Below are positions 8,937 to 36,078 of a DNA stretch of 36,227 bases, one piece after another. The stretch's first letter is position 1; every line of letters starts with the position of its first letter. Below the pieces are notes generated by a model, which saw only the letters and a list, made by a program, of their open reading frames with translations, had not been told where the DNA came from and did no database searches. A program made the translations under genes and the position numbers. The DNA comes from Bhargavaea cecembensis (GTDB lineage Bacteria > Bacillota > Bacilli > Bacillales_A > Planococcaceae), in the NCBI RefSeq assembly GCF_000826125.2, contig NZ_LN651373.1, positions 939,167 through 975,393 of the forward strand, written 5' to 3'.

Positions 8937-9013
8937 TTGCCGAAGCGTGATCATAGAATAATGATTTCATGCGAGGCATATGGTCCCTTAGAAGTGAAGG
9001 AAGAGGTGACCGA

Positions 9014-11077
9014 TTGGATCAGCACGAACACGGAAAGCCGTCCAGGCGTGACGAAAAAGACGAACAGCTTGAACCGCTCCGGGAGCAAAACACCGGTCCG
9101 GGAGAGAAAATGACGAGCGATTCAGGGTTCAAGGTGTCGAACGACCGCTGGACATTGAGGGCCGGCAAGCGCGGGCCGCTTTTATTGCACGATATCCATT
9201 TTTATAGGAAACAATCCCATTTCAACCGGGAGCGGATCCCCGAGAAAGTGGTGCACGCGAGAGGGTTCGGCCTATACGGGGAATTTGAACTGACGAAGTC
9301 GCTTAAACCATACACGGTGGCCAAATTCCTTCAGGAACCGGGGACCCGGACACCGGTGTTTTGCCGGTTTTCGAATTTCATCGGAAGCAAGGGGTCCAAG
9401 GACACGGCGGTGGATATCCGGGGATTTGCGGTGAAGTTCTATACGGAGGAAGGGAACTATGATTCGCTTTCGCTGCAGTTCCCGGTGTTCATTCTGGCGG
9501 ATGCGATGAAGTTTGCGGATGTGACGCATGCCGTCAAGCCGAATCCGATCACGGACATCCCGCAGGCGACGGTCGCGCATGACCGGTTCTGGGACTACGT
9601 CGTGAGCAATCCGGAGTCGGCCCATATGGTGATGTGGCTCATGTCGATGAGAGGGCGGCCGAGAAGCTGGCGGATGATGGCCGGCTGGCCGATCAACACG
9701 TTCCGGCTGATCAACTCGGAGGGGCGTTCGACGTTCGTCCGGTTCACGTGGAAGCCGAGGCTCGGCGTCCATTCGCTGCTGCTGGATGAAGCGAACATCA
9801 TCGGCGGCGTCGACCCGGACTTCCACCGCCGGGACATCGTCGAGGCGGTGCAAAAAGGGGCGTATCCGGAATACGATTTCGGCGTGCAGCTCATCGCCGA
9901 AGAAGATGAGCACCGGTTCGGATTTGATATATTGGACGACACGAAGCTCTGGCCGGAGGAAGTGGTCCCCGTTGAGATTGTCGGGAAGCTGACATTGAAC
10001 CGGCTTGTGGACAATTTCTTTGCGGAAGAGGAACAGTCCTCCTTCGATCCGGCTTCGCTCGTGCCGGGCATCGACTTTACGAACGATCCGGTCCTTCAGG
10101 GGCGGTCGTTTGCCTACCGGGATACGGACTACCACCGGCTCGGCACCGGGAACATCAATGAAATTCCGGTCAACCGGCCGATCGTGGAAACGAACTATAA
10201 CTTGAGGGACAGCTATTCGAAATACCGGATCGACACCGACTACGTCACTTACCATGAAAACACGCTTGCGGGCAACACGCCGGCGGAGACGCCGCCGGAA
10301 GAGGGCGGGTTCGTTCATTACCCCGAAAAGGTGGAGGGGCGGATCACGAGGGAACGTCCGGGCGAATCGTACTTCGACTACTTCTCCCAGGCAAGGCTCT
10401 TCTGGAACAGCCTGTCGCAAGTGGAGAAGCAGGATCTGACAGACACGTTCATCTACCATCTCGGGTACGCGAAATCCGAGGAGATCCGCCAGCTGAACGT
10501 GGAATTCTGGGCGAATGTCGACCGGGAGATGGCCTGCGTGATCGCCGATCATATCGGGGTCGACCGGCCGACCGGCACGCACGTTCCCGTGACGGAGAGC
10601 TCTCCCTCGATCAGCCAGGCGAACACCCCGCACTATGCGTATACGCAGAAAGTGGCCGTGCTGATCGGCGACGGCTTTGACGGCGGAGAAGTGAAGAGGA
10701 CGCTGGATGCCCTTCGGCAGGCCGGCGTGTTCATCGATATCATCAGTGACCGGTTGGGCCATGTGACCGGATCGGACGGCATGAAACTAAAGGTTGAAGA
10801 GACGTTCACCACGAAATATCCGGTGCTGTACGACTCGTTCTACGTGGTCGGAGGGAACGCGCACAATCAGGTGCTGTTCGACCAGAGCGTCCGCGAGTTC
10901 GTCCACGATGCCTACAAGCGGTATAAGCCGATCGGCGTCGCGGCGGCAGGGCGGCCGTATATCGAGGCGGCCCCGGACAACAATCTGGCGGGCGTGGTGT
11001 TCGCTTCCGGCAATGCCGGTTTCCAGGAAGATTTCGTCGCCGCAATCGCCCAGCAACGGTTCTGGAACCGGACTTGA
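9014..11077 (+). CDS. Large-subunit (KatE/HPII-type) haem catalase with altered distal pocket
   Basis: A 687-residue clade-2 catalase: catalase core, then a flavodoxin/class I amidotransferase-like C-terminal domain from about residue 520 (VAVLIGDGFDGGE). The proximal haem ligand motif RSFAY is intact (Tyr368, Arg364) and the distal His81 is present in KVVHARGF. However, the distal Asn of the usual VGNN-x-P motif is replaced: the segment reads YDSLSLQFPVF, so the aligned residues are Leu154-Gln155. The haem-propionate Arg of T-V-R-D is Val133, and the Arg before VVHA is Lys78. Activity may therefore be reduced or changed. The start is TTG 9014, with GAGG seven bases upstream, giving the length of B. 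subtilis KatE; an ATG at 8969 has no ribosome site. No SigB promoter is visible nearby. Confidence 0.88.
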   Translation: MDQHEHGKPSRRDEKDEQLEPLREQNTGPGEKMTSDSGFKVSNDRWTLRAGKRGPLLLHDIHFYRKQSHFNRERIPEKVVHARGFGLYGEFELTKSLKPYTVAKFLQEPGTRTPVFCRFSNFIGSKGSKDTAVDIRGFAVKFYTEEGNYDSLSLQFPVFILADAMKFADVTHAVKPNPITDIPQATVAHDRFWDYVVSNPESAHMVMWLMSMRGRPRSWRMMAGWPINTFRLINSEGRSTFVRFTWKPRLGVHSLLLDEANIIGGVDPDFHRRDIVEAVQKGAYPEYDFGVQLIAEEDEHRFGFDILDDTKLWPEEVVPVEIVGKLTLNRLVDNFFAEEEQSSFDPASLVPGIDFTNDPVLQGRSFAYRDTDYHRLGTGNINEIPVNRPIVETNYNLRDSYSKYRIDTDYVTYHENTLAGNTPAETPPEEGGFVHYPEKVEGRITRERPGESYFDYFSQARLFWNSLSQVEKQDLTDTFIYHLGYAKSEEIRQLNVEFWANVDREMACVIADHIGVDRPTGTHVPVTESSPSISQANTPHYAYTQKVAVLIGDGFDGGEVKRTLDALRQAGVFIDIISDRLGHVTGSDGMKLKVEETFTTKYPVLYDSFYVVGGNAHNQVLFDQSVREFVHDAYKRYKPIGVAAAGRPYIEAAPDNNLAGVVFASGNAGFQEDFVAAIAQQRFWNRT

Positions 11078-12717: not shown

Positions 12718-13773
12718 ATGACGATACCATTCGATCTCGAACGATCCATCCGCATTCTCGATCAGCTCGTCCACACCCCGAGCCCGTCGGGATACACGAT
12801 GGATGTGATGCGGAAAGTGGCCGGCATTCTCGAAGAAGCCGGGCTGGACATCCAAACAACAAACAAAGGCGCCGTAATCGCCTCGATCAAAGGCGAAGAC
12901 GACAGCCGGCACCGGCTCATTACGGCTCATGTCGATACGCTCGGCGGCATCGTCAAGGAAGTGAAGCCGTCCGGCCGCCTGAAGCTCGATAAAATCGGCG
13001 GATTCAACTGGAACGCGGCCGAAGGGGAGTATTGCCTCGTCCACACTGCGGACGGGCGCAAGATCCGCGGCACGATCCTCATGCACCAGACGACCGTGCA
13101 TGTGTACCGGGATGCCGGGACGGCGGAGCGGAGCAGCGACAACATCGAAGTCCGCCTCGATGAAAAAGTGATGAATGTGGAAGAGACCCGGAAGCTCGGC
13201 ATCGAAGTGGGCGATTTTGTCTCTTTTGACCCGAGATTCGAGCGCACGGACAACGGGTTCATCAAATCCCGCCATCTCGACGACAAGGCGAGCACCGCGC
13301 TTCTCCTTGAACTGGCGGCGTCGATCGCCGGGTCGGGCGAGAAACTCCCGCACACCGTCCACTTCTACATTTCGAACAATGAAGAGATCGGGTTCGGCGG
13401 CAACGCGTCGGTTCCGGACGAGACGGTCGAGTACATCGCGTTCGACATGGGCGCGATCGGCGACGGCCAGTCGTCGGACGAGTACACGGTATCGATCTGC
13501 GTGAAAGATTCGAGCGGCCCGTATCACTACGGGCTCACCCGCCATCTGGCGGACCTGTGCAAGAGAGACGGGATCCCGCACAAACTGGACATCTATCCGT
13601 ACTACGGTTCGGATGCCTCGGCCGCCATCCGGGCAGGCTATGATGTGAAGCATGCGCTCTTCGGCCCGGGGATCGAATCGTCCCATGCGCTTGAGCGCAC
13701 CCACACGGAATCGATGGAAGCGGCGGCCCGGCTTCTCCGTGCCTACGTCATGTCGCCGCTCTCGGAGGATTGA
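12718..13773 (+). CDS. M42 family metallo-aminopeptidase
   Basis: A 351-residue dinuclear metallopeptidase of the M42 (glutamyl aminopeptidase/deblocking aminopeptidase) family, cytosolic and usually an oligomeric cage. Metal and catalytic residues are readable: AHVDTLGG (His71, Asp73), HLDDKAS (bridging Asp near 188), SNNEEIGFGG (catalytic Glu222 and metal ligand Glu223), AFDMGAIGDG (Asp243) and ERTH (His329). The start is ATG 12718 after GGGAGGA; an upstream ATG at 12664 has no ribosome site and lies in the promoter. The murE start follows five bases after the stop, so the two genes form an operon; a role in peptide turnover is the safe reading. Confidence 0.9.
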   Translation: MTIPFDLERSIRILDQLVHTPSPSGYTMDVMRKVAGILEEAGLDIQTTNKGAVIASIKGEDDSRHRLITAHVDTLGGIVKEVKPSGRLKLDKIGGFNWNAAEGEYCLVHTADGRKIRGTILMHQTTVHVYRDAGTAERSSDNIEVRLDEKVMNVEETRKLGIEVGDFVSFDPRFERTDNGFIKSRHLDDKASTALLLELAASIAGSGEKLPHTVHFYISNNEEIGFGGNASVPDETVEYIAFDMGAIGDGQSSDEYTVSICVKDSSGPYHYGLTRHLADLCKRDGIPHKLDIYPYYGSDASAAIRAGYDVKHALFGPGIESSHALERTHTESMEAAARLLRAYVMSPLSED

Positions 13774-13777
13774 TCAT

Positions 13778-15265
13778 ATGGAAACGAAAAAACTGCTTGA
13801 ACAGCTGCCCGTCCGGAAAGTGACCGGCACCATCCCTGCGGAAGTGACCGACCTGGCCGTCGATTCCCGGGCGGTCCAGCCGGGAGGGGCATTCCTCTGC
13901 GTCAAAGGCTACACGGTCGACGGCCATGAATTTGCAGGGCAGGCGCTGAAGGCAGGTGCCCGCCTGATCATCGCGGAACGCCCGGTCGACATCGATCCGG
14001 AAAAGGCCGCGCTCGTCCTCGTCGACGACACTGCACGCGCCGAAGGGCTTCTCGCCGCGGCGTTCTTCGGCCATCCTTCCCGCTCGATCCGAATGATCGG
14101 CGTCACGGGAACGAACGGCAAGACGAGCGTGACCGGCATCATCCACGGCATCCTCCGGTCGGCCGGCCGGAAGTCCGCCGCTTCGGGGACGATCGGATTT
14201 GACCTGGACGGGACACTCTATGAGTCGGCCAACACGACGAACGACGCCGTCACGACGCAGCGGATGATCCGTCAGGCCGTCTTGGAAGGGTGCGACACGA
14301 TGACGATGGAAGTGTCCTCGCACGGGCTCGTCGAAGGGCGGATGTCCGGCACCGATTTCGACATCGCCGTATTCACGAACCTGACGCACGACCATCTCGA
14401 CTTCCACGGCACGATGGAGCATTACGGCTATGCAAAGGGGCTGCTGTTCGCCCAGCTCGGACAAGATGTCTCCCGCCGGAAAGCCGCCGTGCTCAATGCG
14501 GATGATCCGTGGTCGGAGCGCTACCGGCAGATGACCCCGTTCCCGGTCTACAGCTACGGGCTGTCTGAAGAAGCGATGTTCCGGGCGTCGGATATCCGCC
14601 TCGGGGCCGGCTCGACCTCGTTCCTCATGGAGACGCCGGAAGGCCGGGAAGAAGTCCGGATGAACCTGCTCGGCGAATTCAACGTGTCGAACGCGCTGGC
14701 CGCAACCGCGGCGCTTTACGCGTCGGGCATGCCGCTCGGAGAAATCCTGGACGGCCTCCGGTCGCTCCAGCCTGTGAAGGGCCGGATGGAGAAAGTCGAG
14801 ACGGATTTGCCGGTCACGATGTATGTGGACTACGCCCATACGCCGGACGCGATTGAAAAGGCGATCGCCACCGTGCTTCCGTACAAGACGAACAAACTGA
14901 TTTTCCTGATCGGGACGGGGGGCAACCGGGACCGTTCGAAGCGGCCGACGATGGCCGAAAAGGCATCGGTCGCGGACTATGTCGTCCTGACGACCGATGA
15001 CCCGCGGGACGAGCCGTACGACTCGATCACTTCGGAGCTCGCCGCCGGGATGACGCATGACGGATTTGCGTGCATCGGCGACCGGGAAGAGGCGGTCCGG
15101 CACGCCGTGTCGGTCGCCGAAGAAGGGGACATCATCATCTTCGCCGGCAAAGGGCACGAAGATTTCCAGATCATCGGCCGGACGAAATATCCGCACAGCG
15201 ACGCCGAGATCGCACTCGACGAAGCCGAGCGCAAATTCGGCCGCAAAGCAGGAGTGCACGACTGA
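13778..15265 (+). CDS. murE: MurE, UDP-MurNAc-L-Ala-D-Glu:diamino acid ligase (probably L-lysine-adding)
   Basis: A 495-residue Mur ligase that adds the third residue of the peptidoglycan stem peptide in the cytoplasm. The ATP loop GVTGTNGKTSVTG is at residues 108-120, the carbamylated-Lys region follows, DYAHTPDAIE is at 351-360 and GTGGNRDRSKR at 379-389. The amino-acid specificity motif, DNPR in meso-DAP enzymes, reads DDPR here (407-410). Together with the following prfC gene, an order I recall from Staphylococcus aureus (Lys-type), this suggests an L-Lys enzyme; the motif alone does not prove it. CGGAGGA (13763-13769) serves ATG 13778, five bases after the M42 gene. A strong terminator follows. 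Confidence 0.93.
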   Translation: METKKLLEQLPVRKVTGTIPAEVTDLAVDSRAVQPGGAFLCVKGYTVDGHEFAGQALKAGARLIIAERPVDIDPEKAALVLVDDTARAEGLLAAAFFGHPSRSIRMIGVTGTNGKTSVTGIIHGILRSAGRKSAASGTIGFDLDGTLYESANTTNDAVTTQRMIRQAVLEGCDTMTMEVSSHGLVEGRMSGTDFDIAVFTNLTHDHLDFHGTMEHYGYAKGLLFAQLGQDVSRRKAAVLNADDPWSERYRQMTPFPVYSYGLSEEAMFRASDIRLGAGSTSFLMETPEGREEVRMNLLGEFNVSNALAATAALYASGMPLGEILDGLRSLQPVKGRMEKVETDLPVTMYVDYAHTPDAIEKAIATVLPYKTNKLIFLIGTGGNRDRSKRPTMAEKASVADYVVLTTDDPRDEPYDSITSELAAGMTHDGFACIGDREEAVRHAVSVAEEGDIIIFAGKGHEDFQIIGRTKYPHSDAEIALDEAERKFGRKAGVHD

Positions 15266-15304: not shown

Positions 15305-15378
15305 GTTGATCATGCTTGATTTCCCCGCCCATCGTCTCTATGATGAGAAAAGCTGAAAACATGAGGAGAAATGGAAAA

Positions 15379-16953
15379 ATGGATCAACAACTGAAAAACG
15401 AAATCGCCTCGAGGCGCACGTTCGCGATCATCTCGCACCCGGATGCCGGGAAGACGACGATCACCGAAAAGCTGCTCCTGTTCGGAGGCGCCATCCGGGA
15501 TGCCGGGACGGTCAAAGGGAAAAAATCCGGCAAATTCGCGACATCCGACTGGATGGAAATCGAAAAGCAGCGCGGCATCTCCGTCACCAGCTCGGTGCTG
15601 CAGTTCGACTATGACGGAAAACGGGTCAACATCCTCGACACGCCGGGCCACGAAGACTTCAGTGAAGACACGTACCGGACGCTCATGGCGGTCGACTCGG
15701 CGGTCATGATGATCGACTCCGCCAAAGGGATCGAACCCCAGACGATCAAGCTGTTCAAAGTGTGCCGGATGCGCGGGATCCCGATCTTCACTTTCATGAA
15801 CAAGATGGACCGCATGGGGAAAGAGCCTCTCGAATTGATGGAAGAACTCGAGGAAGTGCTCGGGATCGAGTCCTACGCGATGAACTGGCCGATCGGCATG
15901 GGGAAAGAATTCATGGGCATCTACGACCGGCATAACCGCCGCGTGGAACTCGCCCGCCCTGATGGGGACAAGCGGTTCCTCGAAGTCGGCGAAGACGGCG
16001 ACCTTGCCGAATCTCACCCGATTCAGGAGACTTCCTATTACGAGCAGGCGCTCGGGGACGTTCTCCTGCTCGACGAAGCGGGCAACGACTTTGACCGGGA
16101 GCGGGTGGAGAAGGGCGAACTCACGCCGGTCTTCTTCGGTTCGGCCTTGACGAACTTCGGCGTTCAGACTTTCCTTGAGACGTACCTCCAGTTCGCTCCG
16201 CCGCCGCAGCCGAGGAAAACGTCCGGCGACGAGGAAGTGGATCCGTTCGATGATGAATTCACCGGATTCATCTTCAAGATCCAGGCGAACATGAACCCGG
16301 CCCACCGTGACCGGATCGCCTTCGTCCGCATCGTCTCGGGCGAATTCGACCGGGGCATGCAGGTGACCGTCCCGAGGATTCCGAAGACGTTCAAAGTGAG
16401 CCAGTCGACGCAGTTCCTCGCGGACGACCGGGAAACCGTCAATATGGCCGTCGCCGGCGACATCATCGGCTTGTACGACACCGGGAACTACCAGATCGGC
16501 GACACGATCACCGGCGGCAAAGGAAGGTTCGCGTTCGAGGCACTGCCGCAGTTCACCCCGGAACTGTTCGTCAAAGTAACGCCAAAAAACGTCATGAAGT
16601 CAAAACACTTCCACAAGGGCATCCTCCAGCTTGTCCAGGAAGGCGCCATCCAATACTACAAGACGCTTCATACAGAGGAAGTCATCCTTGGGGCGGTCGG
16701 ACAGCTCCAGTTCGAAGTGTTCGAACACCGGATGAAAAACGAGTACAACTCCGAAGTGAACATGGAGCACATCGGCTCGAAGGTCGCCCGCTGGATCGAA
16801 AACGAAGGCGACGTCAAAGAATCGATGACCGGCCCGCGCAGCATGCTCGTGAAAGACCGCCACGACCGGCTTGTCTTCCTGTTCGAGAACGACTTCGCCC
16901 TCCGCTGGTTCCAGGACAAGTACCCGGACATCAAATTGTATAGCCTGCTTTAA
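15379..16953 (+). CDS. prfC: Peptide chain release factor 3
   Basis: A 524-residue translational GTPase that recycles RF1/RF2 from the ribosome. G motifs: [16 protein letters not shown] (G1, from residue 18), RGIS (G2), [14 protein letters not shown] (G3, 87-100) and NKMDR (G4, 141-145). The RF3-specific C-terminal part includes [12 protein letters not shown] and [19 protein letters not shown]. The frame opens 21 codons earlier, but ATG 15379 is preceded by GAGGAG at a 10-base spacing and gives the family length. prfC is absent from B. subtilis 168 as I recall, while the murE-prfC order is known from staphylococci. A hairpin terminator follows. Confidence 0.95.
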
Positions 16954-30373: not shown

Positions 30374-30446
30374 ACGGGAGGCGGTCGGGGAACCAAACCT
30401 TTCCGTCCGCGTACTAATGGTTAGATGCATGAAGGGAAGGGATGAG

Positions 30447-32810
30447 ATGGGGAAGTGGAAAATCGGGCTCGCAGCCCTCGGATTGCTGGCCATGCTGGCC
30501 GGTACCGGAACCGCCGAGGCCGCGCCTCAGCTGGAGGTGAAGGCGACTGGCGGAATCGACGGAAAAGTGAAGGAAGGAGCCGGTTTTCCGCTGGCCATCG
30601 AAGTACATAACAGCGGCGATCCGTTCTCGGGGGACCTGATCCTCGACTTCCGGTCAGGTTACATGTCAGGCACCGCCGAAGCGGTTCCGGTGGAAGTCGG
30701 CGAAGGAGAGACCGTGACGGTGCGCACTACCGCCGACGGGGCGGACTCCTACTCGTACCGGCAAAACAGCTTCAAATTCTTTGAGGGCGGCTGGGAAAAC
30801 GGGAAGGAAGTGCCGTATAAAGGCGACCGCTACCCGCAGCTCAATTTCTATTTCGAGGACGCCGGGTTCATCATCGCCCTTTCGGAGAGCGGTGACCGCC
30901 TTGCCTCGCTTAAAGACGCACAGCTCGGTTCCACGTCAGAGACGGTGCTGCTCAGTCCGCTCCAGGACCCCGAATTCCGTCCGCCGACCGATAAAAACGG
31001 CTGGGGGTCTGCAGATGTCATCATTGCGGACGAAGCGGTCCTGCCGGCATTTTCCGCAGCCGAACAGACCGCGCTCGGGGAATGGGTGGAGGCGGGGGGC
31101 ACGCTCCTGATCGGCATGACGGACGATCCTGACGCCGAGGCCGGCCCGTTTGCCGGCCGGCTTCCGCTCAAAGGCAAAGGCCGGGAAGATATACCGGGAT
31201 CCGCTTTTTCGGTGTATGCGAAAGGGGCCGAACTGCCCGATTCTGTTCCGGGCTTTTCAACAGAGCTTACCGAAGGGGCGTCAAGCCTGGCAAGTGCCGG
31301 CGGCCTGACCCTGGCGGCGTGGAAGCCGTACGGGGCAGGGGAAATCATCCAGACCGCCTTTTCGCTCGGCGACCGGCCGTTTGCGGGGACGCCGGCCCAT
31401 ACGCTTTTTGTCCAGAATATTTTGTCGGCCCTTTCTGCCGGGCAGCAAACCGGCCAGGGGATGTACGCCGATCTGGACGAGGGCTTTGTTGACCTCGGAC
31501 GCCGGGCGAGCGAACGGTTCGAGACGTTTCGTATCCCGGTGCCGGCCATCTTGGTTGTTGTCCTCGTTTACATCGCGGTGATCGGGCCGCTCCTGTATGT
31601 CGTGCTGAAGCGGAAGGACAAGCGGGAGCAGGCATGGTGGATCATTCCCGCCATTTCGCTCGTCGTGTCGGCGGCACTGTTCGGCTACGGGGCGAAGGAC
31701 CGATTGTTCCATCCCCAGCTCCGGCAGGCCGCGATGCTGATCGATGACGGGTCCGGAAGCTTGTCCGGAAAGTACGTTGGGTCCGTCCTGACGAACCGCG
31801 GAGGGGACGTGGAGTTCCATGCGCCGTCCGGCATGACCCTGACGGCCGCCGGAACATCGAATCCGTTCACGGGGTCATCGCCTGACAGCTTCCGCCATGC
31901 GGTTGCCGAAAAGCGCGCGGACGGCACCCGTCTCGTCCTGAGGGAGCTGCCGTTCTGGTCGGTCGGGACTGTCCACGGCGACTTCCGGATGGAGGAAGCC
32001 GGCACGATCAAGGCTGAATTGAAAACGCAGGACGGAAAAGTGAGCGGGACGATCACGAACGGCTTTGGCTTCAGATTGAAAGATGTGGCCATCTGGAGCG
32101 GAACCGGTTTTACGCAGATCGGCGACATGGAGGCCGGCAGCAAGATCCAGGTTGAAGAAAAGCTTGCCGGCGGTCTGCTCCTGCCTGCAGTCCAGCCGAA
32201 CACTTTGGCAATGGGCGGACCGGTGCTGGCGAACGGCTACGGCGGGACGGACGATCCGCGTGCTTCCGCCATGATGGATGCGGCCGGCCTGTTCATGGAC
32301 GGCAAACGCCCGGCGATCGTGGCGAGGACGGATTCATCGGTCGTCCCGCTTGAGATGAAAGGGAAGCCGAAGTACTCGTCCGTCGCGGTCATCGTCCGTC
32401 CGTTCGAGCCGGAAATGCGGCTTTCCGGGCCGTTCACCGTTCCGTCGGAGCTTCTGGAGACGAACCTGCAGCCGGAAGATCCGAACTTGTATCATGAGGA
32501 ATTACCGGCCGGCGAAGTGTATTTGGAGCCGGGACGGTATTCCTTCGAAGCGACGGTCCCGGCAACATTCAACGAAATCGCTGAGGGCTGGGAACAGATC
32601 CGGATCGGTGCCGGTGAAGGGATTGACGATATCGAGATCCTGAACACCGAAACCGGGGAATACGAGCCGATCTCACTCCCGGCGGAGCTGAAGGAGACGG
32701 AACTGTATTTGTCGGAAGCCGGTACGGTCAGCCTCCGCTTCGTGAAGACGCCGGACGGAGAAGCGGCCGGACTGCCGGAAATCACGATTGAGGGGGTGGC
32801 CGGACGATGA
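30447..32810 (+). CDS. Large exported membrane protein of an ABC/MoxR operon
   Basis: A 787-residue protein of no named family that I can assign. It has a signal peptide (MGKWKIGLAALGLLAMLAG...AEA, about 1-25), an external region of about 335 residues, two membrane helices (about 362-385 and 395-412) joined by a short basic loop KRKDKREQA, and a second external region of about 370 residues. The first external region starts with a beta-sandwich-like part and has a Rossmann-like ASADVIIADE...GEWVEAGGTLLIG pattern similar to amidotransferase-like domains of GldG/DUF4350-type proteins. ABC-linked GldG proteins have a comparable external domain. ATG 30447 follows GGGAAGGGATGAG. It overlaps the ABC ATPase gene by four bases (ATGA) and likely works with it. 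Confidence 0.8.
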   Translation: MGKWKIGLAALGLLAMLAGTGTAEAAPQLEVKATGGIDGKVKEGAGFPLAIEVHNSGDPFSGDLILDFRSGYMSGTAEAVPVEVGEGETVTVRTTADGADSYSYRQNSFKFFEGGWENGKEVPYKGDRYPQLNFYFEDAGFIIALSESGDRLASLKDAQLGSTSETVLLSPLQDPEFRPPTDKNGWGSADVIIADEAVLPAFSAAEQTALGEWVEAGGTLLIGMTDDPDAEAGPFAGRLPLKGKGREDIPGSAFSVYAKGAELPDSVPGFSTELTEGASSLASAGGLTLAAWKPYGAGEIIQTAFSLGDRPFAGTPAHTLFVQNILSALSAGQQTGQGMYADLDEGFVDLGRRASERFETFRIPVPAILVVVLVYIAVIGPLLYVVLKRKDKREQAWWIIPAISLVVSAALFGYGAKDRLFHPQLRQAAMLIDDGSGSLSGKYVGSVLTNRGGDVEFHAPSGMTLTAAGTSNPFTGSSPDSFRHAVAEKRADGTRLVLRELPFWSVGTVHGDFRMEEAGTIKAELKTQDGKVSGTITNGFGFRLKDVAIWSGTGFTQIGDMEAGSKIQVEEKLAGGLLLPAVQPNTLAMGGPVLANGYGGTDDPRASAMMDAAGLFMDGKRPAIVARTDSSVVPLEMKGKPKYSSVAVIVRPFEPEMRLSGPFTVPSELLETNLQPEDPNLYHEELPAGEVYLEPGRYSFEATVPATFNEIAEGWEQIRIGAGEGIDDIEILNTETGEYEPISLPAELKETELYLSEAGTVSLRFVKTPDGEAAGLPEITIEGVAGR

Positions 32811-33739
32811 TCGATATCCGGAAACTATCAAAGTCATACGGGTCGTTCCAGGCGCTCCGGGAACTGGACCTTGAAATAGCGGGAGGCACGGTGTTCGGAG
32901 TCGTCGGGGCGAACGGCGCGGGGAAGTCGACCGCGTTCTCCATCTTGGCGACGCTCCTTCCGCCGACGTCGGGCGATGCGTTCATCGGGGGATCGAGCGT
33001 GCGGACCGCCGCCGCCGACGTACGGAAGAAAATCGGCTATATGCCGGACTTTTTCGGCGTCTATGATCAGTTGAAGACGGATGAGTACCTCGATTTTTAT
33101 GCAGCCAGCTACGGAATCGATGTGCGGCAGCGGCAGGTCCTGATCGGGCAGCTGCTCGAACTCGTCAATCTCGAACAAAAGCATGACGCCTATGTCGACT
33201 CCCTTTCAAGGGGGATGAAACAGCGCCTCTGCCTTGCGCGGAGCCTCATCCACGATCCGGAAGTGCTCATACTCGATGAGCCGGCCTCCGGACTGGATCC
33301 TCGGGCACGGGTGGAAATGCGGGAAATCATGAAGCGGCTGAAAGGGATGGACAAGACGGTGCTGATCTCCTCGCATATCCTGCCGGAACTGGCGGAGATG
33401 TGCGATGAGATCGGCGTGCTCGACAGGGGCCGTCTCGTCGCCCGCAACTCGGTCAGGGAAATCCATACGAGGCTGAAAGGCGACCGTGTCATCACGGTGA
33501 AGCTGAACGGGAGCCCGGATTTGGCCGTCCGGTTTTTCGAGGAGCGGCCGTTCATATCGGCGATCCGGCCGGATTCCGCCGGTGAGATCACCTTTTCCTT
33601 CAGCGGCGGCGAAGCGGACCAGGCGGAACTCCTGTCGGCCGCGGTCTCCCGGGGCCTCGGCATCCGGTCGTTCTCCGAGGAGGAGACGGACCTGGAAGAC
33701 GTTTTCATGGCCATCACGAAAGAGGGGGCAGAACAGTGA
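32807..33739 (+). CDS. ABC transporter ATP-binding protein
   Basis: A 310-residue ABC ATPase of the ABC-2/DRA (drug, antibiotic, gliding) class. Walker A GANGAGKST is at residues about 35-43, the signature LSRGMKQRLCLARSL near 130-144, Walker B VLILDEPASGLDP near 152-164, the H-loop in SSHILPE. The C-terminal 100 residues are the extra domain common in GldA/NatA-type proteins. Its four-base overlaps with both neighbours (ATGA upstream, GTGA downstream) make translational coupling very likely. It should power the permease encoded next; export of a peptide, lipid or wall precursor is possible but not shown. Confidence 0.93.
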   Translation: MIDIRKLSKSYGSFQALRELDLEIAGGTVFGVVGANGAGKSTAFSILATLLPPTSGDAFIGGSSVRTAAADVRKKIGYMPDFFGVYDQLKTDEYLDFYAASYGIDVRQRQVLIGQLLELVNLEQKHDAYVDSLSRGMKQRLCLARSLIHDPEVLILDEPASGLDPRARVEMREIMKRLKGMDKTVLISSHILPELAEMCDEIGVLDRGRLVARNSVREIHTRLKGDRVITVKLNGSPDLAVRFFEERPFISAIRPDSAGEITFSFSGGEADQAELLSAAVSRGLGIRSFSEEETDLEDVFMAITKEGAEQ

Positions 33740-34593: not shown

Positions 34594-36078
34594 ATGGACA
34601 GCAGACAAATCCTTGAACGGACAATCCGGAGAGCACTCTTCCGGCTGGCGCTCCAGTGGACGTCCCGGCAGCTGGTGAAGGGACTTGCCGCCGGCATCTG
34701 GACGGCCGTCCTGTTCCTGATCGTCACCCGGTTTTTCATCATGCCGGGCTACTCGTTCTATGCGCTCGCCGCGGGAATCATCGCCGTCCTGGCAGTTCCC
34801 GCCGTCTCATTCGGCAACAGGCCGAAAAGGAGAGATGCGCTGCGGGTGCTCGACCGGCATGCGCCGGACAATCTGATACTGGCCGCCGGCACGCTCCCTC
34901 CGGATGCCGGACCGCTTGCCGACGATCTGGCGGAGGAGGCGGCGCAGCATTCCGGTGATGCATTTGCCTCGTTCAGAAAGACGAAGGGCCGGTGGGCGGA
35001 CCGGCGAAGTGCCGCGGTATCGGCGGCGGGGCTTGCTGTTCTCCTTCTGACGATGTTGTATCCGTCTCCGGCACAGCTGGAAGCGAAAGAGGAAGAGGCG
35101 GAGCGGGAGATTGTGACCTCGATCCGGAAGGAAGTGGAGAAGCTCCGGGAGAAAGCCGCCGATGAAGTGGTGGCGGAGCGGCTCGCCGATCTGGAAGAGG
35201 CCGTCGGGAAAGCCGCCGTGCCGGAAGAGGCGATCGGCGAAACCGTGAAACTGCAGCGCGAACTGAACCTGCAGGAGCGGCTCGAAAACGGAGCCGGCAG
35301 CCCGGAGAACGGTGATGCAGGCACGCTGACCGGGAAAGAAGCCGCGGAAGCCCTGGCGGCGATCGCCGGGAATGCGGACGAGAAACTCGCGAAGCTCGGC
35401 CGGTCTGCCGGCGGCAGCCTCGCTTCAGGTGAACCGGCCGGGGAGAACGGGACTGGCGGCAGTGAAAAAACCGGCGGAGACCCGCCGCCGGGGAGCGACG
35501 GCGGGCCTGCCGGGTCGGATGCTGCTCCGGGAAGCGACGGGAACAGTAGCGGAAACGCCGGCGGCCCGGGCAACGGGACGGATCAAGCCGGCGGCCAGGG
35601 CGGTTCTGGCCAGAACGGTGTTGGCCAGGACGGGGCAGGCCGGGACGGAAGCGCCGGAAACGGTACGGGCCAGGGAGGTTCGGGCCAGGGAGGCTCAGGC
35701 CAGGGAGACTCGGGCCAGAATGGCTCCGGCCAGGGAGGCTCCGGCCAGGGAGGCTCGGGCCAGAATGGCTCCGGCAAAGGCGGCGACGGAACAACCGGCA
35801 GCGGGGCGGGAATGGGGCAGGGCAGCCGTGACCTCGTCAGCACGCCTCCGCCCGGATTCGATCCGCGCGCACCCGTCCAGGACACGGGGAAACAAGAAGA
35901 CGGCGGCCGGACGGAAAAAGGGACCGTCCCTGCCGGAAAAGGGACCGTCCGCCCGTACGGCGAGGCAACCGGCGACTATCGGGATGCCTACATGGAAGAT
36001 GCCGGCCGTCTCGGACTGCCCGAAGACCTGCAGCGGATCTTGTCCGACTATTTCTCCTCGATCGAAAACAGAGACTAA
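34594..36078 (+). CDS. Membrane/coiled-coil protein with repetitive Gly-rich region
   Basis: A 494-residue protein without a named family. Two adjacent membrane helices (about 31-50 and 53-73) and a third (about 139-157) precede a charged coiled coil (about 162-232: EAKEEEAEREIV... LREKAADEVVAERLADLEE). Residues 283-410 are low complexity, rich in Gly, Ser, Gln, Asn, with pentapeptides of the type SGQGG. The end (YGEATGDYRDAYMEDA... LPEDLQRILSDYF) resembles the conserved C-terminal motif of proteins encoded beside MoxR/DUF58 genes. The charged middle and tail would lie outside the cell if the third helix exits outward. AGGGGG serves ATG 34594; stop TAA at 36076-36078 overlaps the next ribosome site. 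Confidence 0.82.
   Translation: MDSRQILERTIRRALFRLALQWTSRQLVKGLAAGIWTAVLFLIVTRFFIMPGYSFYALAAGIIAVLAVPAVSFGNRPKRRDALRVLDRHAPDNLILAAGTLPPDAGPLADDLAEEAAQHSGDAFASFRKTKGRWADRRSAAVSAAGLAVLLLTMLYPSPAQLEAKEEEAEREIVTSIRKEVEKLREKAADEVVAERLADLEEAVGKAAVPEEAIGETVKLQRELNLQERLENGAGSPENGDAGTLTGKEAAEALAAIAGNADEKLAKLGRSAGGSLASGEPAGENGTGGSEKTGGDPPPGSDGGPAGSDAAPGSDGNSSGNAGGPGNGTDQAGGQGGSGQNGVGQDGAGRDGSAGNGTGQGGSGQGGSGQGDSGQNGSGQGGSGQGGSGQNGSGKGGDGTTGSGAGMGQGSRDLVSTPPPGFDPRAPVQDTGKQEDGGRTEKGTVPAGKGTVRPYGEATGDYRDAYMEDAGRLGLPEDLQRILSDYFSSIENRD
35601..35780 (+). repeat. 15-bp coding minisatellite
   Basis: Within the preceding gene, a 15-base unit of the form GGCTCSGGCCAGRRW is repeated about nine to twelve times with variation, encoding SGQGG-, SGQNG- and SGQGD-type pentapeptides. 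Changes in copy number would keep the reading frame. Confidence 0.85.

Follow-up and report, generated by a model that had tools for sequence, protein, structure and literature searches.

The question raised by this locus is whether a protein that has the domains of a large catalase, and lacks the distal Asn of the active site, still carries out the catalase reaction. The distal Asn is counted, together with His and Ser, among the conserved residues of the haem catalase active site (PMC9687031), and its replacement in the protein encoded here was analysed by alignments, phylogenetic trees and a survey of the genomes in which related genes are found.

The gene and its protein

The window, i.e. 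the whole 36,227-nucleotide stretch of DNA analysed, harbours an open reading frame spanning positions 8969–11077, which when read from an internal TTG gives a protein of 687 residues (Table 1). The preliminary description had placed the start at this TTG, a sound choice as it is preceded by GAAGAGGTGA. Searches with Pfam revealed matches to Catalase, Catalase-rel, Catalase_C and DJ-1_PfpI, the catalase cut-off being exceeded by a wide margin, and the domain order PF00199, PF06628 and PF18011 is that of clade 2 large-subunit catalases. Scored against NF008422, the NCBIfam equivalog for HPII, the window protein (the only protein so scored) reached 753.5 bits, which is below the curated cut-off of 1102.

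Among solved structures, HPII (KatE) of E. coli and its variants come closest in sequence, with a top PDB score of 585 bits. HPII shares with the window protein the domain order, ~43% identity in the fold alignment, the distal His and Ser, the proximal Arg and Tyr and two of the three propionate arginines. An AlphaFold2 model of the window protein has a mean pLDDT of 67.9, falling below 50 at residues 1–83, 123–134 and 157–162, and when used in a fold search HPII entries ranked first with an rmsd near 18 across the whole chain. Because of this rmsd and the moderate pLDDT the model is not certain enough for the geometry of the pocket to be read from it. The protein groups inside the large-subunit catalases in both trees described below and, judged from its sequence, the gene is by descent a clade 2 (large-subunit) catalase homologue.

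Table 1. Features of the catalase homologue gene, in positions of the window
Feature	Position	Strand	Remarks
Shine-Dalgarno-like GAAGAGGTGA	9000..9009	+	just 5' of the TTG start; from sequence
Type A Asn-less large-subunit catalase homologue	9014..11077	+	687 aa, TTG start
Catalase core domain PF00199	9113..10267	+	493 bits
Lys78 for propionate Arg (HPII R125)	9245..9247	+	type A rows: K 56/59, R 2, gap 1
Distal His81 (HPII H128)	9254..9256	+	His in all rows covering the site
Phe122 for main-channel Val (HPII V169)	9377..9379	+	F in 56/59 type A rows
Val133 for main-channel Arg (HPII R180)	9410..9412	+	type A rows (n=59): V 35, I 20, Q 2, R 1, gap 1
Leu154-Gln155 for catalytic Asn201 and Asn202	9473..9478	+	alignments
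Ile160 for gate-valve Phe (HPII F207; CAT-1 F171)	9491..9493	+	alignment; role according to PMC9687031
Val187 for gate Ser (HPII S234)	9572..9574	+	alignment; role according to PMC10836395 and PMC9687031
Arg364 to Tyr368, proximal Arg and haem-ligand Tyr kept (HPII R411, Y415)	10103..10117	+	Ala367 for Ser414
His482 for gate Glu (HPII E530)	10457..10459	+	type A rows: H 58/59, Q 1; role according to PMC10836395
DJ-1/PfpI-like C-terminal domain of large catalases, PF18011	10643..11071	+	51 bits

Active site and access channel

Residue equivalences were taken from a phmmer alignment to E. coli HPII together with an alignment of 169 catalase sequences. The loop around the catalytic Asn aligns ungapped with HPII and, as had been described beforehand, places Leu154 at Asn201 and Gln155 at Asn202. 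A search of the loop for a displaced conserved Asn gave none, and as the loop lengths are equal both a displaced Asn and a gapped alignment are ruled out. The retention of His81, Arg364 and Tyr368, equivalent to His128, Arg411 and Tyr415 of HPII, was likewise borne out; the distal His81 is accompanied by Ser120 and the proximal ligand Tyr368 by Arg364. In HPII numbering H128, R165, S167, D181, D197, F206, F214, R411, Y415 and R422 are unchanged, as is the CAT-1 channel-model residue Met221, while the replacements are R125K, V169F, R180V, N201L, N202Q, F207I, S234V, H392D, S414A, Q419D and E530H. Among these V169F, F207I, S234V and E530H come in addition to the changes listed in the preliminary description.

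Two haem-pocket arginines had also been reported as lost, and the residues found in their places, Lys78 (HPII Arg125) before VVHA and Val133 (HPII Arg180) in the TVRD motif, are as given there. The haem-coordinating arginines of the catalase fold are R64, R102 and R360 in coral cAOS (PMC5617202), which, judged by how far they lie from the distal His and the proximal Tyr, probably correspond to R125, R165 and R422 of HPII. In CATPO Arg134 is grouped with the gate residues, and the constant offset given by E530/Glu484 and S234/Thr188 makes the TVRD Arg, HPII R180, equivalent to this Arg134 (PMC10836395). The offset to CAT-1 is constant as well (H128/His92, N201/Asn165, on our reading of His92 and Asn165 in PMC9687031 as the equivalents of the HPII residues), which makes R180 equivalent to CAT-1 Arg144, a residue that the model reviewed in that paper assigns to the low-affinity H2O2 site. 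From the cAOS spacing and the numbering offsets it follows that one propionate Arg has become Lys (Lys78) and two are kept (R118 and R375), and that Val133 replaces a residue of the main channel; the claim of a changed haem-pocket Arg thus holds for Lys78 and not for Val133.

The gate loop of canonical large catalases reads cis-P, Q, A/G, Q/A, S/T, A, H and is joined by a gate Glu (PMC9687031, PMC10836395), with Gly in 4/42 and Ala in 1/42 of the canonical large rows of our alignment at the S/T place. In the window protein the loop is PQATVAH, with His482 at the gate Glu, and falls outside this pattern. CATPO (Scytalidium/Mycothermus), a large catalase whose gate residues have been studied for a second, oxidase activity, has Glu484 and Arg134 (PMC10836395), both of which are replaced in the window protein; the specificity of this oxidase activity has been doubted (PMC9687031). 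The channel model of CAT-1 names Arg144, Phe170/171, Val133, Ser198 and Asn165 (PMC9687031), and since the replacements hit elements named in this model they support a rebuilt H2O2 path. By its aligned active site the window protein falls outside the canonical definition of a haem catalase.

A single Asn-less clade of two types

The alignment holds 169 distinct catalase sequences, enriched for relatives of the window gene; besides the own genome they come from related loci (the best 80 of 128), further genomes, plasmids and E. coli, and 194 rows were reduced to 169 by merging identical cores. At the position of HPII 201 Leu is found in 59 rows, Ile in 39 and Asn in 70 including HPII, while the fragment L119 lacks the loop. 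The preliminary description had proposed looking for other clade-2 catalases with SLQ in this place, and the window protein shares its Leu at the Asn with the other rows of the first group. The Asn-less rows (98/169) make up type A with Leu (n=59, the window gene included) and type B with Ile (n=39); the canonical rows were classed as large (n=42 including HPII) and small (n=28). As the related loci were found with the peptide patterns DAMKF[AM]D and HD[RN]FWDY, derived from the window protein and L002 of the same genome, which exclude the Asn loop but favour types A and B, the counts are not frequencies. The canonical rows come mostly from the genome, plasmid and E. coli searches outside these loci.

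The changes are coupled. The gate Glu530 and the valve Phe207 are lost in 98/98 Asn-less rows, and the distal His and Ser are invariant across all rows covering them. Type A is characterised by K125 and F169 (56 of 59 rows each), V or I at 180 (55), H530 (58) and D or E at 419 (57), and type B by I201, Q530, C184, G234, R125 and R180 in all 39 rows together with L206, I207 and V169 in 38 each. The canonical large rows have N201, R125, R180, V169, F206 and E530 in 42/42 cases and F207 in 41/42, and positions 111, 199, 208, 272, 304, 407 and 414, constant or near-constant among them, are replaced in nearly all rows of both Asn-less types. Canonical KatE-like large catalases of Bacillota, e.g. 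L169–L178, are of the same length and among the nearest canonical relatives of the window protein in the tree, but differ from it in keeping Asn201, Arg125, Arg180, Val169 and Glu530.

In a midpoint-rooted tree of 166 rows, without the fragments L116, L119 and L154, the Asn-less rows form one clade among these canonical KatE-like Bacillota catalases with an SH-aLRT of 99. The single clade holds at 100/100 when 37 trait positions are removed in a tree of 82 rows (42 canonical, 24 of 58 type A and 16 of 39 type B). Several independent losses of the Asn are needed by neither tree. The suggestion that the coupled changes mark a diverged subgroup and not a random mutation is strongly supported by these tallies and trees, and a one-off mutation, a pseudogene or a sequencing error is ruled out. 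The dN/dS ratio was 0.015–0.12 in nine of the ten within-type pairs tested, the synonymous sites being saturated in the tenth, the window gene with L006; purifying selection evidently acts on the relatives of the window gene.

Two genes combine features of the types. The Evansella clarkii gene (L058:5001-7052) has L201 and Q530 yet keeps R125, V169 and R180, and L033 of Amphibacillus sp. MSJ-3 has L201 and H530 with R125, L169 and Q180. These intermediates suggest that Asn201, F207 and E530 were lost first, and that the changes at R125, V169 and R180 in type A followed. At the level of sequence the window gene can be placed in type A, within a branch of clade 2 that has a single origin and in which the H2O2 path appears rebuilt and the haem site kept.

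Catalases of the genome and the genus

The genome of 3.16 Mb contains four PF00199 genes, the window gene, L001, L002 and L003. A second, normal catalase, which the preliminary description proposed to look for, is present as L001, a canonical small catalase of 551 aa. L002 (687 aa) is of type A with 65% identity to the window protein, and L003 (L003:697-2754; 686 aa, 57% identity) is of type B, the type in which Ile replaces Asn201, Cys replaces Gly184 and the two valve Phe have mostly given way to Leu and Ile. No PF00141 peroxidase was found in the genome. Among eight genomes of the genus type A is found in 7/8, type B in 8/8, canonical small catalases in 8/8 and canonical large ones in 6/8, and in the family sample type A genes, identified among matches of at least 63% identity to the window protein, occur in at least 6/61 genomes. 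In the 166-row tree the window gene groups with those of Melghirimyces, Lentibacillus and others, apart from L002 and the type A genes of the genus, and from this placement it is an additional old paralogue or an acquired gene. In one genome of the genus (G006) a canonical large gene, L154, reads as split between two frames, with a TGA in the second piece, unlike the Asn-less genes found there, which are open.

A proposed reaction

A different activity of the window protein, as proposed beforehand, is plausible from these changes. The best explanation, in which our confidence is evenly balanced, is a haem protein that would still react with peroxide and has been rebuilt away from the fast dismutation of H2O2, perhaps towards a peroxidatic reaction. 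Haem would be bound through the Tyr, and the distal His and Ser would still let peroxide cleave to form compound I. With the Asn gone and replacements in the low-affinity site, the gate and the valve, compound I would be expected to be reduced only poorly by a second H2O2; H2O2 as reductant would be neither concentrated nor oriented and dismutation would be slow, so that the main reaction could become a slower one, in which another reductant or another hydroperoxide is turned over peroxidatically or oxidatively. Haem b is expected in the protein, as catalase activity is reportedly required for haem d and the Tyr cross-link to form. No measured activity, spectrum or structure of any Asn-less member was found in the PDB sequences and the literature searched.

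Mutants of yeast catalase A bear on this reading in both directions. Exchange of the F206 equivalent for Val (F148V) leaves 10% catalatic and no peroxidase activity (PMC9687031), and the low catalatic activity speaks for the best explanation as regards type B. V111A, at the equivalent of Val169, widens the channel and raises the peroxidatic activity (PMC9687031); the Phe at 169 in type A should by the opposite effect narrow it, which argues against easy entry of a bulky substrate, with the possible exception that the lost Phe207 would open the other wall and offset the narrowing. Taken together the two mutants tell against an easy peroxidatic reading, and our confidence has been lowered for this reason to the even level given above.

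A bolder proposal, tentative though to be taken seriously, is that types A and B represent two new kinds of haem enzyme and not catalases, each using a specific organic peroxide or reductant of its own. A single duplication of a KatE-like gene in Bacillota would have been followed by dismantling of the path that selects H2O2 and by formation of two new pockets around a preserved core of His, haem and Tyr. The pocket of type A would have its Phe on the opposite channel wall (V169F, with F207 lost), and that of type B would have lost both valve Phe and gained a Cys (F206L, F207I, G184C). A known catalase-fold haem protein turned from H2O2 to an organic hydroperoxide is the coral cAOS/hydroperoxide lyase, which keeps the Asn (N137) and has a Thr beside the distal His (PMC5617202), whereas the window protein has Leu154 and Val80 and does not show this signature.

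If peroxide chemistry had been lost altogether the protein might serve as a haem store, a haem sensor or a chaperone. The C-terminal DJ-1-like domain is retained, and chaperone activity of this domain of large catalases is reported in PMC9687031 and, by its title, in PMC9137513. A pure store or chaperone would have no need of the invariant distal His and Ser, and the replaced positions are themselves conserved, all of which makes this alternative improbable compared with a protein that still reacts with peroxide.

Company of other catalases

To tell the types apart in genome searches PF00199 scores were used, which for proteins of known type are at least 558 bits in full-length canonical and at most 540 in Asn-less ones. 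Canonical-range matches were present in 27/28 searched host genomes (from 30 of the best 80 of 128 loci), the sole exception being Amphibacillus sp. MSJ-3; together with the canonical catalases of the own genome and of the genus this speaks for the reaction proposed above. In 11/15 further genomes, mostly metagenome bins and again including Amphibacillus, all PF00199 matches are in the Asn-less range, and in those 11 the Asn-less genes may have to serve as catalase, which counts against it.

These counts bear on the reading that the Asn-less proteins are still true catalases, slower or tuned to salt, alkali or low peroxide, in which a remodelled channel offsets the missing Asn. It accords with the genomes holding Asn-less genes only, with the intact distal His, Ser and proximal Tyr and Arg, and with the many host names that suggest salt- or alkali-tolerant Bacillaceae (among the best 80 of 128 loci). 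The HPII variants N201H, V169C, E530A/D/I and S234A/D/I/N fold and crystallise, as seen from PDB titles, and exchange of the Asn by itself may still allow appreciable catalase activity. In a study of 2008 by Gao, Boeglin and Brash mutations of the distal Asn in human catalase and cAOS reportedly affect the rate and not the essential chemistry, which speaks for the reaction proposed above. N137 of cAOS is described, with reference to the same study, as not important in catalysis per se (PMC5617202). The view in the preliminary description that changes of the Asn lower and do not abolish activity, put forward there for HPII, agrees with the title of that study and with this statement on cAOS; for HPII itself the evidence covered comprises the PDB titles given above. 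Against a true catalase, several features for the selection of H2O2 have been replaced jointly and in a conserved fashion, and nearly all of the 28 host genomes possess a canonical catalase besides; we regard this reading as possible though doubtful.

Genomic neighbourhood and promoter regions

The catalase gene of the window is flanked by a GFO/IDH/MocA oxidoreductase upstream and an aldehyde dehydrogenase downstream. A conserved neighbour was sought in the window and 80 related loci (the best 80 of 128, with flanks of at most 5 kb and a greedy choice of open reading frames), and the commonest non-catalase cluster occurred in only 9/81 stretches, by which a conserved partner gene is ruled out. 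The gene looks like a stand-alone gene, and the lack of a neighbour pointing to a substrate counts against the peroxide-reactive haem protein favoured above. Type A and type B genes are close to one another in L005, L020 and L075, as are two type B genes in L082. Elsewhere in the window a murE-like open reading frame (13652–15265) overlaps the end of an M42 peptidase frame on the same strand, the starts being provisional; next comes a frame resembling peptide release factor 3 (15316–16953). Two frames of 797 and 494 aa (30417–32810 and 34594–36078), without Pfam match at E 1e-10, lie near an ABC transporter ATPase gene (32807–33739).

When analysing the upstream regions SigB-like sites were identified in 4/56 type A, 0/38 type B and 8/37 canonical large genes, with means in shuffled sequences of 0.59, 0.32 and 0.45, respectively, which is at most a hint of a putative difference in regulation between the types. 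Scans for other sigma factors gave nothing clear, with SigG-like sites in 6/38 type B genes vs a mean of 2.2.

Haem supply

Neither ferrochelatase (0/11) nor ChdC (0/11) was found in the genomes having Asn-less PF00199 genes only, while 5/5 genomes with a canonical catalase, the own genome included, have both, a pattern that would be expected if the Asn-less proteins worked without haem or with another tetrapyrrole. In a control outside the class of the window, screened for ferrochelatase alone, 6/6 genomes with a canonical catalase (G045, G049, G091, G102, G111 and G127) also lack an above-cut-off ferrochelatase, G102 holding an 18.8-bit piece below the cut-off, and this weakens the haem-free reading. 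Two genomes with Asn-less genes or pieces (G092 and G123) are likewise without ferrochelatase over the cut-off. The kind of host may explain the missing ferrochelatase, and 10 of the 11 genomes are metagenome bins with short catalase contigs. As the haem-binding residues are retained too, work without haem or with another tetrapyrrole is very improbable, and we keep to a haem protein that would still react with peroxide.

The Asn-less catalases of metagenome bins without ferrochelatase (L011, L013, L014, L028, L036, L037, L040, L045, L048, L050 and L053) form two small clades on contigs of 4.7 to 34 kb, for which mis-binning is possible. In Amphibacillus sp. MSJ-3, an isolate by its record name, the intermediate-type Asn-less gene (L033:5001-7019) is the sole PF00199 match, and no ferrochelatase or ChdC match was found in this genome. 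Another species of the genus, A. xylanus, is described as being without haem synthesis genes and haem catalase (PMC5986008).

Implications

A search of the literature, in which subscription papers are thinly covered, gave no mention of an Asn-less catalase clade, which is weak evidence of absence. What is new is a conserved Asn-less variant within the known descent of clade 2, and it would amount to more only with proof of a new reaction. In HPII the residues Asn201, Val169, Ser234 and Glu530 have been varied by protein engineering, according to PDB titles, and the same positions have been changed together in nature, apparently once, and are kept so in at least 98 distinct sequences with two solutions. 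The clade therefore makes it possible to test the channel and gate-valve model on natural variants.

For the family the consequence concerns annotation. One type B gene, L191 on a plasmid of Paenibacillus larvae, bears the plain name "catalase" in the public record, and the window protein scores far above the Pfam catalase cut-off, so that catalase gene counts in Bacillota may overstate the capacity to remove peroxide; proteins that are catalase-like to sequence models may run a slower or a different chemistry.
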